Positions 27,367-34,496 of a stretch of 57,206 nucleotides of DNA are shown in pieces. Numbering within the stretch: the first letter of the stretch is position 1; every line of letters begins with the position of its first letter. Position numbers and translations under genes: made by a program. Where the stretch lies: positions 1 to 57,206 of the forward strand of contig JAKVBA010000010.1 in NCBI GenBank assembly GCA_022447525.1, given 5' to 3'. This DNA is from Gammaproteobacteria bacterium (GTDB lineage Bacteria > Pseudomonadota > Gammaproteobacteria > Arenicellales > Arenicellaceae). Under the pieces are notes generated by a model. The model was not told the origin of the DNA, made no database searches, and saw nothing but the letters and a program-made list of their open reading frames with translations.

Positions 27367-27654
27367 TTAAATTTTTGAGTCTAGTTGCTTGATCACTGCA
27401 TCGATAGCCTCGAGCGAACTCAGCGAATCTCTGGTATCTAACTTTTCCATGGCACTTCTGCAATTGGCCGCCAACTCACTATACCCATACATACCAGAGG
27501 AACCGGCTAGCTTGTGAAGCTCTTCCCTAGCAAATGTAATGTTGTTCTCTTGTAAAAGCTCAGAGCGGGCCTTCCGAATAATTGCGAGCTTTTCTGGAAA
27601 GCTCTGTCTGTATCGTACCTTTAACTGTTGTATCTGTGGCGAATCTTCAGTCAT
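27367..27654 (-). CDS. Histidine phosphotransfer (Hpt) domain protein
   Basis: A 95-residue single-domain Hpt protein. The phospho-acceptor histidine sits in REELHKLAGSSGMYGY, the classic HxLxGssgmyG helix, inside a four-helix-bundle-like sequence. I choose the ATG at 27654 because AAGGAG (27661-27666) lies 6 bases upstream; the earlier ATG at 27672 has no such site. It begins just after the kinase stop codon on the same strand, so it likely receives phosphate from the receiver of that kinase. A natural next partner is a receiver such as that of the OmpR-type regulator at 31956, but this is inference. Confidence 0.85.
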   Translation of the reverse strand: MTEDSPQIQQLKVRYRQSFPEKLAIIRKARSELLQENNITFAREELHKLAGSSGMYGYSELAANCRSAMEKLDTRDSLSSLEAIDAVIKQLDSKI

Positions 27655-27660
27655 CTCAAA

Positions 27661-27666
27661 CTCCTT
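27661..27666 (-). promoter_or_regulatory. Ribosome-binding site that fixes the Hpt start
   Basis: AAGGAG on the minus strand ends 6 bases before the ATG at 27654. It supports that start over the in-frame ATG at 27672, of which this site would be codons 3-4. Confidence 0.65.
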
Positions 27667-27675
27667 ACTCATTAT

Positions 27676-29229
27676 TTATTGCGAAAGCAATATGTCAGCC
27701 GTTTCAATGATCTCTTGGACATCAACTGGCTTTGTTAAGTAAGCAGAGCAACCTAGCTCAGCCGCCCGCTTTTGGTCGGCTTCAACCGCAGATGCACTCA
27801 TTACAATTACCGGAATAGTCGAGCCAATTCTATTCAACTCTAAAACAGCTTCGTAACCCGACATTACTGGCATGTGAATATCCATTATTATGAGATCGAA
27901 GTTATGGCTTTGGACGGCTTCTACAGCGAGCGCTCCGTTGACAACATGAGTGACATCAATATTCCAATCTTTAAGCATCAAAATCATAAGATCTGCGATA
28001 AATGGGTCATCTTCTGCTAACAAAATATCGAGGGATTTAGTTTTAATCAACTCCCTAGTGGCCGAGTCTAAATCCAATGATCCAAGATCAGAGGCGTGCA
28101 CATTAAATTTAACTAGCGTTCCCTCACCTAGCTCGGAAAAAATATCCAACGCTCCTCCCATCATGTTAATGATGCGTTCGGTAATAGTGAGACCAAGCCC
28201 AGTCCCTATTTTGCCAGTACCCGAAGCCTGATAAAACGGTAGCCTTATTTTATTCATATCCTCTTCACTTATACCAATGCCGGTATCTAAAATCGAAACC
28301 TGCAAAGTGTCATTCGCGTAGTTAAAATCCACAGTAACAGACCCCTGATCTGTAAACTTTATCGCGTTGCCTATTAGGTTAATCAGGCACTGACGTAAAC
28401 GACTATCGTCTACCATTACTGTCGCCGTTTCGTTGTAAGGAGGAATGACGTTGAATTCAATTCCCTTTGTTTCACTCAAGGGTCGTAGAACTAATTCCAC
28501 ATCATCTATAAGCTGTTTGAGAGAGTTGGGCTTGGGTTTAAGTACTATCTCATCAGAGTCTAACTTGCCGTGATCAAGCAAATTTTCTACCAGCGACATA
28601 AGATGCTTGCTCGAACGCTGAACAGCACTTAGATAATCATTGTTACAATCGGCGAGTCCTTTTTGTTCATCTCCTGTCTTTTGAAGATTGTTTAGCACTA
28701 AGTTGGTGTAACCTATTATTGAGGTTAGAGGTGTTCTAAATTCATGTGACACGCCTGATAAAAAGCTGGTTTGCAACCGAGAGGCTTCTTCAAGCTGCCT
28801 GTTTTTTTGCTCAAGCTTCCGTGATGCTCTCTCTAATTCAGCCATCAGCTTTTTCTGCCGCTCAACCAATAACTCATTCTCATTGGCGGCTTGCTGTAAC
28901 TTCCTTCTTTGCTCGGTTGTATCCGAAACATCTGATATCAAAACTGTAAGATTGTCTCCACAAGGAACCAAACTAACTGAAATTGACATACCATTTGGGC
29001 TGGCTACGAATGGAAGATCTAGTTTCGTATTAACGTCCATGCCAATCATGAAATCAATCGCGTCATCTATGACCTGCCCCGGTTGCAATTCAGGAAAGCC
29101 ATAATCCTTGATATTACTTGAGGATTCACATACCCGCATATGCTGATCGACAGAGAAGTATGCCAAATGTAATTTATCAGCCAGTTGCCGACTAATAATC
29201 TTTTGAATTGTGCTGTTTGATGTAAGCAA
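27676..29229 (-). CDS. Hybrid sensor histidine kinase with receiver domain
   Basis: A 517-residue cytosolic kinase with no membrane helix. Residues 15-105 form a PAS-like sensor, and 106-155 a coiled coil. HisKA follows with His162 in GVSHEFRTPLTSIIGY. HATPase motifs are the N box around residue 288, DTGIGI at 315-320 and GTGLGL near 342. The C-terminal receiver (399-515) has acidic EDD early, phospho-acceptor Asp450 in IIMDIHMPVMSG and Lys500. It lies between the GTPase and Hpt genes and would complete a His-Asp-His relay. The start is a TTG at 29229 with no ribosome-binding site; the sensed signal is unknown. Confidence 0.92.
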   Translation of the reverse strand: MLTSNSTIQKIISRQLADKLHLAYFSVDQHMRVCESSSNIKDYGFPELQPGQVIDDAIDFMIGMDVNTKLDLPFVASPNGMSISVSLVPCGDNLTVLISDVSDTTEQRRKLQQAANENELLVERQKKLMAELERASRKLEQKNRQLEEASRLQTSFLSGVSHEFRTPLTSIIGYTNLVLNNLQKTGDEQKGLADCNNDYLSAVQRSSKHLMSLVENLLDHGKLDSDEIVLKPKPNSLKQLIDDVELVLRPLSETKGIEFNVIPPYNETATVMVDDSRLRQCLINLIGNAIKFTDQGSVTVDFNYANDTLQVSILDTGIGISEEDMNKIRLPFYQASGTGKIGTGLGLTITERIINMMGGALDIFSELGEGTLVKFNVHASDLGSLDLDSATRELIKTKSLDILLAEDDPFIADLMILMLKDWNIDVTHVVNGALAVEAVQSHNFDLIIMDIHMPVMSGYEAVLELNRIGSTIPVIVMSASAVEADQKRAAELGCSAYLTKPVDVQEIIETADILLSQ

Positions 29230-29799: not shown

Positions 29800-31320
29800 C
29801 TATTTGATATTTGCTTCGATTTTCACCCACGGTATGCCCGAAAAAGATGACACCAAAGAAGCGAACTCCTTAGAAGAAACTTCGAGTTCAATATTAACAA
29901 CACCCATTTTGGAGTGCTCAGTTTTTATCGATGAAGTCATAGAGTTTATCCTGACAGAATCATATCTCGCATTTATAGCTGCTCTTACTGACTGCTCGTC
30001 GGCAGCTAGCCGGCTAATATTTAATCTTTTATCGCTTGCCAAATTCAGAATTCTGGTCTGATTACTCTTTAACCACTCATACGGAGCATCACCTTCTAAA
30101 TAAATCTTACCGTCTTTTTTATAGAGAGATACGCCAGTTGGTAAAGAAAATTCGTTTGTGAACCTAGCTAACTCCATTTCTGGCTCAAGTGAGCGTACAG
30201 GTACAGTGGCAAACCTTATATCTGACTCGGCTATGCCATATGAGTTCAAAGTCTGATAAGGGATAATCGCATCAGGATCCTTTAAACCTTGAACGACGAT
30301 TTTACCATCGTCATGAATGACATGATTTGCCGTGATACCTGGTGTCTGGTCAAGGAAATGCTTGACCGTCGATAATCGCGAGTAACTATCGTACCAATGA
30401 ACCACTAACCAAGTTAGTGCAGCCAAAACTCCAAGTGAAAAAAGTATCGGCCCCACAGGCTTATCTTTTTTCTTATTTTCAGTGGCTGAATCTTCTTGCT
30501 TGAGCTCCGACCGAAGGAGTGGCTGCAAAATTGATCGAGCGCCCATAAACTTTGCAGCATCTCCATCATATTCCGCTATTTCGTTAGCGAAATCTGTACG
30601 AACCATATCGAGCGCATCATATAGTTCCTGTCTTAACGAGACAGGCGCTTCACCTCGGATTACACAAGCTAGCATCGCACTGGCACCATGAACAACCCAA
30701 ACATTTTGATCACCTACCTTTAAGTCCGTAAGACGGCTTCCCTCATCTACAGAAAACGAATCATGTATAAAACTTTGAATTGCTGAAAACATGGCACTAA
30801 CAGCATCACTATCCAGAGACTGAGCATTATCAGCATGAAGTGTGGTCATCGCCATACCAGTGTTTTGATCAATCAAATAGAGGTGTTCGACTCGGTAGAG
30901 TAAAGTCTGGCGCAATGCCAGTTCAGCATAGGGAATGCCTGTTCTTAGTGATTCATAACGTAGACTCAACCCTTGTGCAGTAGTGGCCGACTCAATGGTT
31001 CTGTTTATTGTTACCATCATTGAACTGATGGCTTGTGAAATCGCTCGCCTGATCGAGGGGGCCATAACAGGATACAGAATTTCAGCGTATTCTTGCGGCT
31101 CAGATCTAATCGCCTTTTTTAAACCAAGGGTAACTGGTTTTTGGAGTGAGTCGACAATGCCACTTTGTTGCGAGGAGAGCTCTTTTTCGATGGCAGACGA
31201 TAGAACTTCAGCTACGTCTTTTGTGCGTTGTTCGACATTCTCTATTCGCTGCTTTAACTCGGTGAGCTGTGCTGAATTATCACCGATGATAATTTGCCTT
31301 AGTTCGTCTAACTGACTCAC
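29800..31320 (-). CDS. Membrane protein with cytoplasmic longin/roadblock-like segment and periplasmic BON-like repeats
   Basis: A 506-residue protein with one transmembrane helix at about 288-310. Before it lie a coiled-coil start (1-50), a conserved segment with YPVMAPSIRRAISQAI (about 83-98), and a region near 144-190 reading VEHLYLIDQNTG then SAMFSAIQSFIHDSF that looks like a longin or roadblock fold. After it, in the periplasm, are two BON-like units (ANHVIHDDGKIVVQGL; GVSLYKKDGKIYLEGD). From memory it resembles proteins labelled OmpA-family in gammaproteobacteria and cyanobacteria, but I see no OmpA peptidoglycan-binding motif. It is flanked by the GTPase and a coiled-coil gene. Domain labels are by eye and need a profile search. 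Confidence 0.75.
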   Translation of the reverse strand: MSQLDELRQIIIGDNSAQLTELKQRIENVEQRTKDVAEVLSSAIEKELSSQQSGIVDSLQKPVTLGLKKAIRSEPQEYAEILYPVMAPSIRRAISQAISSMMVTINRTIESATTAQGLSLRYESLRTGIPYAELALRQTLLYRVEHLYLIDQNTGMAMTTLHADNAQSLDSDAVSAMFSAIQSFIHDSFSVDEGSRLTDLKVGDQNVWVVHGASAMLACVIRGEAPVSLRQELYDALDMVRTDFANEIAEYDGDAAKFMGARSILQPLLRSELKQEDSATENKKKDKPVGPILFSLGVLAALTWLVVHWYDSYSRLSTVKHFLDQTPGITANHVIHDDGKIVVQGLKDPDAIIPYQTLNSYGIAESDIRFATVPVRSLEPEMELARFTNEFSLPTGVSLYKKDGKIYLEGDAPYEWLKSNQTRILNLASDKRLNISRLAADEQSVRAAINARYDSVRINSMTSSIKTEHSKMGVVNIELEVSSKEFASLVSSFSGIPWVKIEANIK

Positions 31321-31955: not shown

Positions 31956-32642
31956 CTAAACCTGCTCAAGTCTATATCCGTGTCTATACACAGAATTTAA
32001 CCGCCAGTTTTCCTGGTGCTCGATCATAAGCTTCGAGCGCAACCTGCTTATATGTGTATCAACGGTTCTAGTATTTAGATTAGAGGTCGTACCCCACACC
32101 ATTTCTAAAAGATGTCCTCTAGAGATAACCCTACCAAGATTTTTGAACAAGAACAGGGTCACCTCATACTCTTTTTGAGTCATCTCAACGATTCGCCCAT
32201 TCAATTTTACCTGACGAGACTTTGAATCTAACTGATACGGAGGCAAGTCGAAATTATCAGGAGTATACTCGTCACTAAACCCCATACGACGCGCGATAGC
32301 ATTGACCCTAGCCATAGTCTCTAGTTGCCTAACGGGTTTGGTCATATAGTCATCGGCACCAGCCTCAAGAGCTTGGACAACATCTTCCTCTGAATCCTTT
32401 TGAGTAATAAACACAACCGGCACCACATTATCTAAATGTGAGCGCATGTGTTTAAGCACCTCTAGCCCACTCAGGCTTGGGACCATCCAGTCTAAAAGCA
32501 CAATGTCATAGGAGTCCTTATTATAGCCCCGTATAAAGGCATTTCCATCTCTATGAACAGTGCATTGGTGACCAGCTTCTTCTAGCCAAGCTACCAGTAA
32601 GTCTGCTTGATCCTTATCATCCTCAAGAATTACTACTCTCAT
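31956..32642 (-). CDS. OmpR/PhoB-family response regulator
   Basis: A 228-residue two-domain regulator. The receiver has acidic Glu7-Asp9 (ILEDD), phospho-acceptor Asp51 in LLDWMVPSLSG, and the Lys of DDYMTKPV. The C-terminal winged helix contains EVTLFLFKNLGRVISRGHLL and TVDTHISRLRSKL, then the wing YRHGYRLEQV. It is first in the minus-strand run that continues with the coiled-coil, membrane, GTPase, kinase and Hpt genes, so it could autoregulate that run. The 357-base divergent gap upstream would hold its promoter. Confidence 0.94.
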   Translation of the reverse strand: MRVVILEDDKDQADLLVAWLEEAGHQCTVHRDGNAFIRGYNKDSYDIVLLDWMVPSLSGLEVLKHMRSHLDNVVPVVFITQKDSEEDVVQALEAGADDYMTKPVRQLETMARVNAIARRMGFSDEYTPDNFDLPPYQLDSKSRQVKLNGRIVEMTQKEYEVTLFLFKNLGRVISRGHLLEMVWGTTSNLNTRTVDTHISRLRSKLMIEHQENWRLNSVYRHGYRLEQV

Positions 32643-32999: not shown

Positions 33000-34496
33000 A
33001 TGTCTGACGAAAATCATCTACTAATCGGTGGCAATGGAGAGCAAACCGTCTTTATGGACGCGAGTATGGCCAATCGCCATGGCATGGTAGCTGGAGCAAC
33101 TGGAACTGGAAAAACGGTAACCTTACAAGTTCTCGCCGAGAACTTTTCTAAAGCTGGCGTGCCGGTGTTTTTAGCTGACGTTAAAGGCGACGTCTCAGGT
33201 ATAGGTAAGAAAGCTAAACCTCACCCCAAAATCGATGAGAGAATCGAGACCATCGGCATTACAGACTACAGTGCCAGCCCTAGCCCGGTGGTATTTTGGG
33301 ATATGTTTGGAGAAAAAGGGCATCCTATTCGCACTACCGTCAGTGAAATCGGGCCTCTACTACTCGCTAACTTACTGGAATTGAATGACACACAAACAGG
33401 GATACTATACTCGTGCTTTAAGATTGCAGACGATCAAGGAATGCTAATTTTGGATCTCAAGGACCTTAGGTCCATGCTGATCTGGATGGGGGATAACAGA
33501 GCCGATCTAAAATCAGAATACGGTAATATTTCCACATCGAGTATTGGCGCTATTCAACGCGGATTGATCGTACTCGAAGAGCAAGGAGCCGAGTTTTTCT
33601 TGGGTGAACCCGCCATTGAACTAAAAGATTTAATGAGTCGAGATTTTTCAGGGCGCGGCGTAATCAACATTTTAGATGCGAATACCCTTCTGCAGAAATC
33701 CCCCAAACTATATTCGACATTTTTGCTTTGGCTCTTATCAGAACTGTTCGAATCTCTGCCTGAAGTAGGCGATGCTGATAGACCTAAATTCGTTATTTTC
33801 TTCGACGAGGCACACCTCCTTTTTGATGACGCACCTAAAGTATTGGTGGAAAAGATTGAACAGGTCGTCAGACTTATACGCTCGAAAGGGGTTGGTATTT
33901 ATTTTATTTCCCAAAGCCCGCTGGACGTGCCTGAAGAAATACTTGGACAACTTGGGTTAAAGATACAACATGCACTTCGAGCATTTACGCCAAAAGACCA
34001 AAAGGCGGTGCGAACTGTTGCCGAAACTTTTCGGCCTAACCCAAAATTAGAAACAGGCAAGGTCATCACTCAGTTAGGCGTTGGTGAGGCGTTAGTAAGC
34101 GTTTTAGATGCTGAAGGTATTCCCACTCAAGTTGAGAGAGTGTTGGTTCGCCCGCCAGAATCGCGCATTGGCCCAATGACCGCAAGCGAGCGAGCTGAAC
34201 AGATAGATCGCTCACCATACAGAGGTAGATACGAACAGACTCTCGATCGAGAGTCTGCCTATGAGATGCTACTGCAACGTGCTAAAAAACTCGCCGCCCA
34301 AGAAGATAAAGACGCGCAAGAAAGTGCACTAAGAGCAGAGCGCGAGAGACTTGAAAAAGGGACATCGAGACCCAGAAGACAATCGAGTAGACAGATACCC
34401 ACAGAGGAATTAGTAAAAAGTGCGGCCAGAGTAATCGGCTCCCCACTTGGAAGAAGGCTTATTAGAGGTGTGCTTGGTTCCTTATTCAGAGGCTGA
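33000..34496 (+). CDS. yjgR: HerA-like P-loop ATPase of the YjgR/DUF853 family
   Basis: A 498-residue HerA/FtsK-type NTPase. Walker A is GATGTGKT at 32-39, and Walker B is VIFFDEAHLLF near 262-272. The phrase ADVKGDVSGIG after the first strand is characteristic. The C-terminal third is rich in Arg/Lys/Glu, with a Gly/Arg end (LGSLFRG). The family is widespread but its role is unclear; relation to HerA suggests DNA or protein translocation. It starts at an ATG after a long AT-rich gap, is divergent from the signalling locus, and is followed by the cytochrome gene. Confidence 0.9.
   Translation: MSDENHLLIGGNGEQTVFMDASMANRHGMVAGATGTGKTVTLQVLAENFSKAGVPVFLADVKGDVSGIGKKAKPHPKIDERIETIGITDYSASPSPVVFWDMFGEKGHPIRTTVSEIGPLLLANLLELNDTQTGILYSCFKIADDQGMLILDLKDLRSMLIWMGDNRADLKSEYGNISTSSIGAIQRGLIVLEEQGAEFFLGEPAIELKDLMSRDFSGRGVINILDANTLLQKSPKLYSTFLLWLLSELFESLPEVGDADRPKFVIFFDEAHLLFDDAPKVLVEKIEQVVRLIRSKGVGIYFISQSPLDVPEEILGQLGLKIQHALRAFTPKDQKAVRTVAETFRPNPKLETGKVITQLGVGEALVSVLDAEGIPTQVERVLVRPPESRIGPMTASERAEQIDRSPYRGRYEQTLDRESAYEMLLQRAKKLAAQEDKDAQESALRAERERLEKGTSRPRRQSSRQIPTEELVKSAARVIGSPLGRRLIRGVLGSLFRG

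Follow-up and report, generated by a model that had tools for sequence, protein, structure and literature searches.

The Locus and Its Genes

The window, meaning the whole 57,206-nucleotide stretch of DNA that was analyzed, contains a series of reverse-strand genes arranged around the gene for a 506-residue membrane protein (Table 1). This open reading frame (ORF), already called in the initial annotation, is a real gene, since it is kept in 16 of the 18 Arenicella genomes searched (the source genome counted in) and its start residue matches that of most relatives. The relatives within Arenicella share 43–59% identity with it, and the gene order of the operon is identical across the other genomes of the genus. 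The protein itself consists of N-terminal helices, a domain with a predicted longin fold, one transmembrane (TM) helix, and three BON-like periplasmic units, in that order.

Table 1. Coordinates of the operon genes and of the segments of the 506-residue protein.
Feature	Coordinates	Strand	Remarks
ORF, 506-residue membrane protein	31320..29800	-	GTG start; stop 29802-29800
OmpR/PhoB-type response regulator	31956..32642	-	Pfam Response_reg + Trans_reg_C; upstream position conserved at gammaproteobacterial loci
Cytoplasmic coiled-coil protein, 180 aa	31385..31927	-	Conserved directly upstream, 65/72 testable loci
Rup-type small GTPase, 159 aa	29288..29767	-	Pfam Ras E 1e-26
Hybrid histidine kinase (HisKA, HATPase, receiver)	27676..29229	-	N-terminal output-gene domain; QQ motif at 112-113
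HPt phosphotransfer protein	27367..27672	-	Pfam Hpt E 1.3e-8; conserved in genus
YpfJ-like metallopeptidase	27337-26501	-	Downstream of HPt gene
N-terminal module, residues 2-44	31189..31317	-	Pattern LRxLLxG...LxxRxExxExR; common to coiled-coil partner
Conserved helices, residues 54-139	30904..31161	-	PVMxPxIRxxI motif at 84-94
Predicted longin-fold domain, residues 140-274	30499..30903	-	VIA-align and Foldseek on predicted model
Central longin helix, residues 171-189	30754..30810	-	DSDAVSAMFxAIQxFVxDSF
Single TM helix, residues about 289-311	30388..30456	-	Preceded by KKKDK
Periplasmic unit 1, residues 313-375	30196..30384	-	BON-like in model only; family motif GLxDPDA
Periplasmic unit 2, residues 376-441	29998..30195	-	BON by profile comparison
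Periplasmic unit 3, residues 442-506	29803..29997	-	BON-like in model only

Intergenic gaps from the response regulator gene through the HPt gene are only 3 to 64 bases long, so these genes probably form one transcript. The response regulator is the probable output of a phosphorelay. Divergent from the operon lies a gene for a HerA-like ATPase (33000-34496); it holds this position, with ~69–84% identity, both within the genus and in a second genus of the family.

A broken copy of the operon is found in UBA7415 (locus L035:3646-9999), where in-frame TAA codons and frameshifts interrupt the genes for the regulator, the longin protein, the kinase, and YpfJ and the adjacent HerA-like gene is intact. 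Either an assembly error or decay accounts for this state. An altered genetic code was dropped as an explanation, because the in-frame TAAs replace E, L, and Q and frameshifts are present as well.

Membrane Topology and the Periplasmic Half

As first annotated, the protein is a one-helix protein in which a single hydrophobic helix joins two halves. Its proposed orientation, with a cytoplasmic N-terminus and a periplasmic C-terminus, agrees with the sequence features that bear on it. Five Lys/Arg residues occur in the 15 residues before the helix and two after it; among 60 relatives, the count is higher before the helix in 33 and equal in nine, which amounts to a mild positive-inside signal. 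Better support than the Lys/Arg count comes from a C-terminal Pfam OmpA domain in 43 to 45 of the 60 relatives, since the OmpA domain acts in the periplasm.

Domain searches bear out the absence of an OmpA peptidoglycan-binding motif from the 506-residue protein, and the OmpA domain with its NxxLxxxRA motif is absent in Arenicella as well. In a tree of the cytoplasmic half, Arenicellaceae cluster with three OmpA-less relatives (L113, L047, and L049), and the OmpA state requires two changes, some forks being weakly supported. The protein of another pair of loci (L036/L084) retains what was judged by eye to be an OmpA-like remnant. The missing OmpA domain is thus to be read, in correction of the initial annotation, as a departure from the usual design, OmpA having been lost by Arenicellaceae and a few relatives.

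Two BON-like units had been noted in the periplasmic half, whereas the structure model contains three, each of an alpha-beta-beta-alpha-beta type. Unit 2 is also recovered by profile: its hhalign comparison with the BON family gives E 4e-7 and a score of 34.2 versus a shuffled maximum of 13.7, and the match persists with the Arenicella rows alone (24.6 versus a null of 13.7). The other two are BON-like in fold only. Profile support for unit 1 is weak with all rows and absent with the Arenicella rows alone, while the Arenicella-only profile of unit 3 scores 14.4 versus a null of 14.2, which is not significant. The Pfam BON model finds no match in the 506-residue protein. A strong score between units 2 and 3 was discarded as an artefact of OmpA-bearing rows, falling to 8.3 without them versus a null maximum of 16. 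Foldseek also matches the periplasmic half to the periplasmic domains of YscD and CdsD (4alz, 4qq0).

Variation in size is seen at three other loci (L050, L053, and L055, in genomes G381, G131, and G275), where longin proteins of 888–982 residues have a duplicated N-terminal segment and additional BON-like repeats ahead of OmpA.

A Predicted Longin Fold in the Cytoplasmic Half

The N-terminal module of the protein recurs in the coiled-coil protein encoded upstream, with an hhalign score of 27.2 for residues 2–44 versus a maximum of 18.4 in 40 column-shuffled controls and 13.4 for the reversed comparison. This common module suggests that the two proteins may pair.

Residues 60–260 had initially been ascribed the look of longin/roadblock proteins. 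That reading holds at the level of fold for residues 140–274, by structure prediction and structure search, in the longin rather than the roadblock form; it finds no backing from sequence profiles. The model used was built from 60 relatives and has a mean pLDDT of 84, a single-sequence AlphaFold model (pLDDT 50) being poor and therefore set aside. In VIA-align, where models without a clear match typically peak at Z 7 to 8, residues 140–274 reach Z 13.2 to the longins 2j3t_D, 9rs9_A, 4afi_A, and 7q3d_C (TRAPP Trs23, Fuzzy, and Vamp7 are named among these), with Sec22b and Ykt6 next at Z 12.3. The structural matches include the Rab regulators TRAPP, Mon1-Ccz1, and Fuzzy-Inturned. Longin alignments of the predicted model span 117–126 residues at an rmsd of 2.5–2.9 Å, and the model displays the longin order b1-b2-a1-b3-b4-b5-a2-a3, with the last helix C-terminal.

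Longins are distinguished from roadblocks by the replacement of an N-terminal helix with an additional C-terminal helix (Tran et al., PMC10933270). The longin alignments extend to residue 272–274 and cover the model's C-terminal helices at 255–268, whereas that of the roadblock protein MglB is confined to residues 142–250. Roadblock Z scores are about 10.5–10.6, for MglB and the archaeal Roadblock3, and the roadblock alignments stop near residue 250. Foldseek matches to chains of longins and roadblocks are at best E 2.4e-4, with MglB and Roadblock3 at 3e-4 to 5e-4. Because the Z of 13.2 stands against a usual 7 to 8 and the alignments take in the C-terminal helices, residues 140–274 are predicted to adopt a longin fold, and the longin form fits the model better than the roadblock form.

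The link to longins is confined to the level of fold, since sequence profiles fail to confirm kinship with longins or roadblocks. Searches of Pfam, NCBIfam, and PDB sequences with the protein or its profile assigned no fold to the cytoplasmic half. The Robl_LC7 profile has no match in the 506-residue protein, the source genome is without any Robl_LC7, and among the 60 relatives there are two weak matches (best E 0.056). An alignment to the gammaproteobacterial Robl_LC7 profile is colinear but weak, scoring 16.8 versus a shuffled-column maximum of 19.6, and was not counted as evidence of kinship. The Fuz_longin_1 profile matches two of 62 relatives (best E 0.0012), below the cut-off and at a level that unrelated families also reached in that scan; these matches are scattered and noise-level, and the reverse search did not recover the Rup loci.

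Conservation within the protein is highest in the central longin helix, with a mean column entropy of 0.65 bits versus 1.1–3.3 elsewhere. Longin-fold proteins also have other roles, for example in regulating SNAREs and assembling coats, so the fold by itself is no proof of GTPase binding.

The GTPase, the Kinase, and Other Output Proteins

The nearest solved structures to the GTPase are those of Rab23, Rab35, Rab1, and Sec4. Its G3 motif, WDIAGRD, is missing the catalytic Gln, and in a family alignment of 68 relatives Gln is not one of the residues commonly found there.

The QQ motif of the hybrid kinase is conserved in 47 of 51 relatives. Its N-terminal domain is common to nine of 11 other downstream output proteins tested, and a tenth matches weakly; output genes at other loci encode an HD-domain protein, a nucleotide cyclase, a PAS protein, or a sigma-54 activator. 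This segment of the kinase (residues 1–146; 28792-29229), which includes a QQxxNELL motif and is without a Pfam family, occurs in kinases, a cyclase, and stand-alone proteins beside Rup GTPases. It is a candidate Rup effector domain. An invariant Gln in the N-terminal region of Group 1 Rup output proteins was reported in 2014, and the authors speculated that this domain supplies the catalytic Gln (PMC4316618). The kinase QQ motif agrees with this speculation and is a putative counterpart of the invariant Gln in their logo (PMC4316618).

Distribution and Co-Occurrence

A scan of genome contigs with the single 506-residue protein as query yielded no matches; an alignment-based scan yielded 521 relatives. 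The best 80 of these include members of the Acidobacteriota, Cyanobacteriota, Gemmatimonadota, Myxococcota, and others. In the 80 that were examined, 65 of 72 testable loci have the coiled-coil gene upstream, and 64 of 77 have the GTPase gene downstream. The order of the cassette is therefore maintained across many phyla.

The suspected link to a GTPase partner proves much stronger than adjacency. Of 369 genomes from the class, the longin-fold protein is present in 31 and the GTPase in 29 (E 1e-12), and all 29 fall within the 31, the lists having been compared by eye. The two remaining genomes (G275 and G392) have the longin-fold protein without a GTPase match at that threshold.

Several variants of the arrangement exist. 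Beggiatoa/Thiomargarita-type loci (L114, L115, L123, L128, L141, L143, L144, L146, and L147) encode long longin proteins of 750–1267 residues, sometimes in tandem copies, with no adjacent GTPase gene. At two loci from distant relatives within the same taxonomic order (L038:5041-5904 and L039:4898-5746), the protein is 282–287 residues long and stops before the TM helix, the coiled-coil, GTPase, and kinase genes being kept. These represent a soluble version of the system.

A Probable Membrane-Anchored GTPase Regulator and Its Alternatives

The 506-residue protein is best read as a membrane-anchored GTPase regulator, given its predicted longin fold, its Rab-like partner, the co-occurrence of the two, and the common output domain. 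With a probability of about 0.6, the protein is an envelope-coupled, membrane-anchored regulator of the Group 1 Rup GTPase and feeds a phosphorelay. The observations behind this reading are the genes and their order, the co-occurrence, the predicted folds, and the missing G3 Gln. Also in its favor are the conservation peak on the central longin helix, the QQ-bearing domain of the output proteins, the profile-matched BON unit, the OmpA domain of most relatives, and the module common to the coiled-coil protein; against it speak the missing profile support for kinship with longins or roadblocks, the other roles of longin-fold proteins, the Beggiatoa/Thiomargarita-type copies with no GTPase gene beside them, and the two genomes with no GTPase match.

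From these, we infer the binding of the GTPase, a GEF- or GAP-like effect on it, the stimulus, and the direction of signaling. The N-terminal helices would pair with the coiled-coil protein, and the longin-fold domain, probably dimeric, would hold its Rab-like GTPase partner at the inner membrane. The periplasmic BON-like half would read or grip something in the envelope, and the protein may in this way transmit a signal across the membrane: an envelope change would alter the handling of the GTPase by the longin domain and shift the GTP/GDP balance. The target of the GTPase would then be the conserved domain at the N-terminus of the hybrid kinase; this domain may provide the missing catalytic Gln, and the signal would pass from the kinase to its own receiver, the HPt protein, the OmpR-type regulator, and finally transcription.

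If the cytoplasmic domain were instead a divergent MglB-type roadblock acting as a GAP for the GTPase, the system would be a membrane-anchored MglA/MglB pair. The Z scores and Foldseek E-values of MglB and Roadblock3 are in keeping with such a pair, as are the weak colinear Robl_LC7 alignment and the two weak Robl_LC7 matches among the relatives. It is nevertheless unlikely, since longins score higher and reach over the extra C-terminal helix where MglB does not, the Robl_LC7 alignment lies within its shuffled controls, and no MglB was found coupled to Rup GTPases in the 2014 survey (PMC4316618).

A passive scaffold, in which the longin domain merely clusters the GTPase, coiled-coil protein, and kinase and the periplasmic units merely anchor the complex with no transmembrane signaling, is rather doubtful. 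OmpA and BON units are frequently structural, Arenicellaceae tolerate the loss of OmpA, and the soluble L038/L039 relatives do without a TM or periplasmic part altogether, all of which such a scaffold would accommodate; against it, varied output enzymes with a common N-terminal domain adjoin the longin protein, which suggests a regulated output. Signal flow could also run outward, with the kinase and GTPase setting the state of a BON-like half that acts on the envelope. In favor of this direction, the BON-like units resemble the periplasmic domains of two type III secretion proteins, YscD and CdsD. Against it, a DNA-binding response regulator and an HPt protein are both encoded in the operon, which is the customary wiring for an inward signal; outward flow is improbable.

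The regulator reading is in line with much of what was first proposed for the locus. The initial annotation had named as contrary outcomes a match to neither fold or an opposite topology, and neither occurred: the predicted cytoplasmic fold is longin-type, one BON unit is matched by profile, and on the available evidence the topology agrees with the proposal. A regulator of this kind would offer a concrete route by which the state of the envelope could reach a bacterial GTPase.

Comparison with Known Systems

The operon belongs to the Group 1 Rup cassette, which was described in 2014 from gene neighborhoods (Wuichet and Sogaard-Andersen, PMC4316618); the class of system has thus been known since then, a point on which the initial annotation is corrected. 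According to that survey, Group 1 Rup GTPases are without the G3 Gln, the domain accompanying Rup was left as unknown, the membrane protein carries OmpA "often" but not always, and no Rup member had been characterized (PMC4316618). The present operon shares with the cassette a Ras-superfamily GTPase without the G3 Gln, an adjoining coiled-coil gene together with a gene for a conserved domain followed by an inner-membrane helix, and an output protein with a conserved Gln in its N-terminal region. It differs in that OmpA, optional in the original description, is lost while the BON-like units are kept, and in that the output consists of a hybrid kinase, an HPt protein, and an OmpR-type regulator. 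What is new, the cassette itself being already known, is the predicted longin fold for its formerly unknown domain.

Among bacterial GTPases, Rup proteins lie nearest to the Rab/Ran/Ras/Rho clade; they have so far been without a known regulator, for which the predicted longin fold now names a candidate. A 2012 analysis derived longins from the MglB-type domains of MglA GTPases (PMC3521125). A bacterial longin fold beside a Rab-like GTPase, as opposed to this MglB/MglA derivation, bears on the origin of the longin-Rab pairing. It is tentatively suggested, as a possibility short of an even chance, that a genuine longin-domain regulator exists in bacteria, paired with a Rab-like GTPase and wired to the envelope, and that this is a counterpart, old or transferred, of a pairing so far ascribed to membrane traffic in eukaryotes and Asgard archaea. 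Any claim of a first bacterial longin needs care, since a 2016 review already records bacteria as having "Longin/Roadblock," the two taken jointly (PMC4917890). A search limited to the open-access literature found no paper later than the 2014 survey on bacterial longins or Rup proteins.

Eukaryotic longin Rab regulators (the TRAPP core, Mon1-Ccz1, and Fuzzy-Inturned) resemble the 506-residue protein in its predicted longin fold and Rab-like GTPase partner. In contrast to them, it is bacterial, spans the membrane with a periplasmic half, has no detectable sequence similarity to them, and is putative as to exchange activity. The MglA/MglB pair and the actinobacterial conservons (CvnA-D) likewise combine a small GTPase with a roadblock/longin-type partner, and conservons also include a histidine kinase; here, however, the GTPase is of the Rup rather than the MglA type, and the partner is membrane-spanning and of the predicted longin rather than the roadblock form. 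Finally, BON-OmpA envelope proteins such as Rv0899/OmpATb (2l26) share the succession of a TM helix and BON-like domains, with OmpA in relatives of the 506-residue protein, whereas the latter has a GTPase-partner-like cytoplasmic half and, in Arenicella, is without OmpA.
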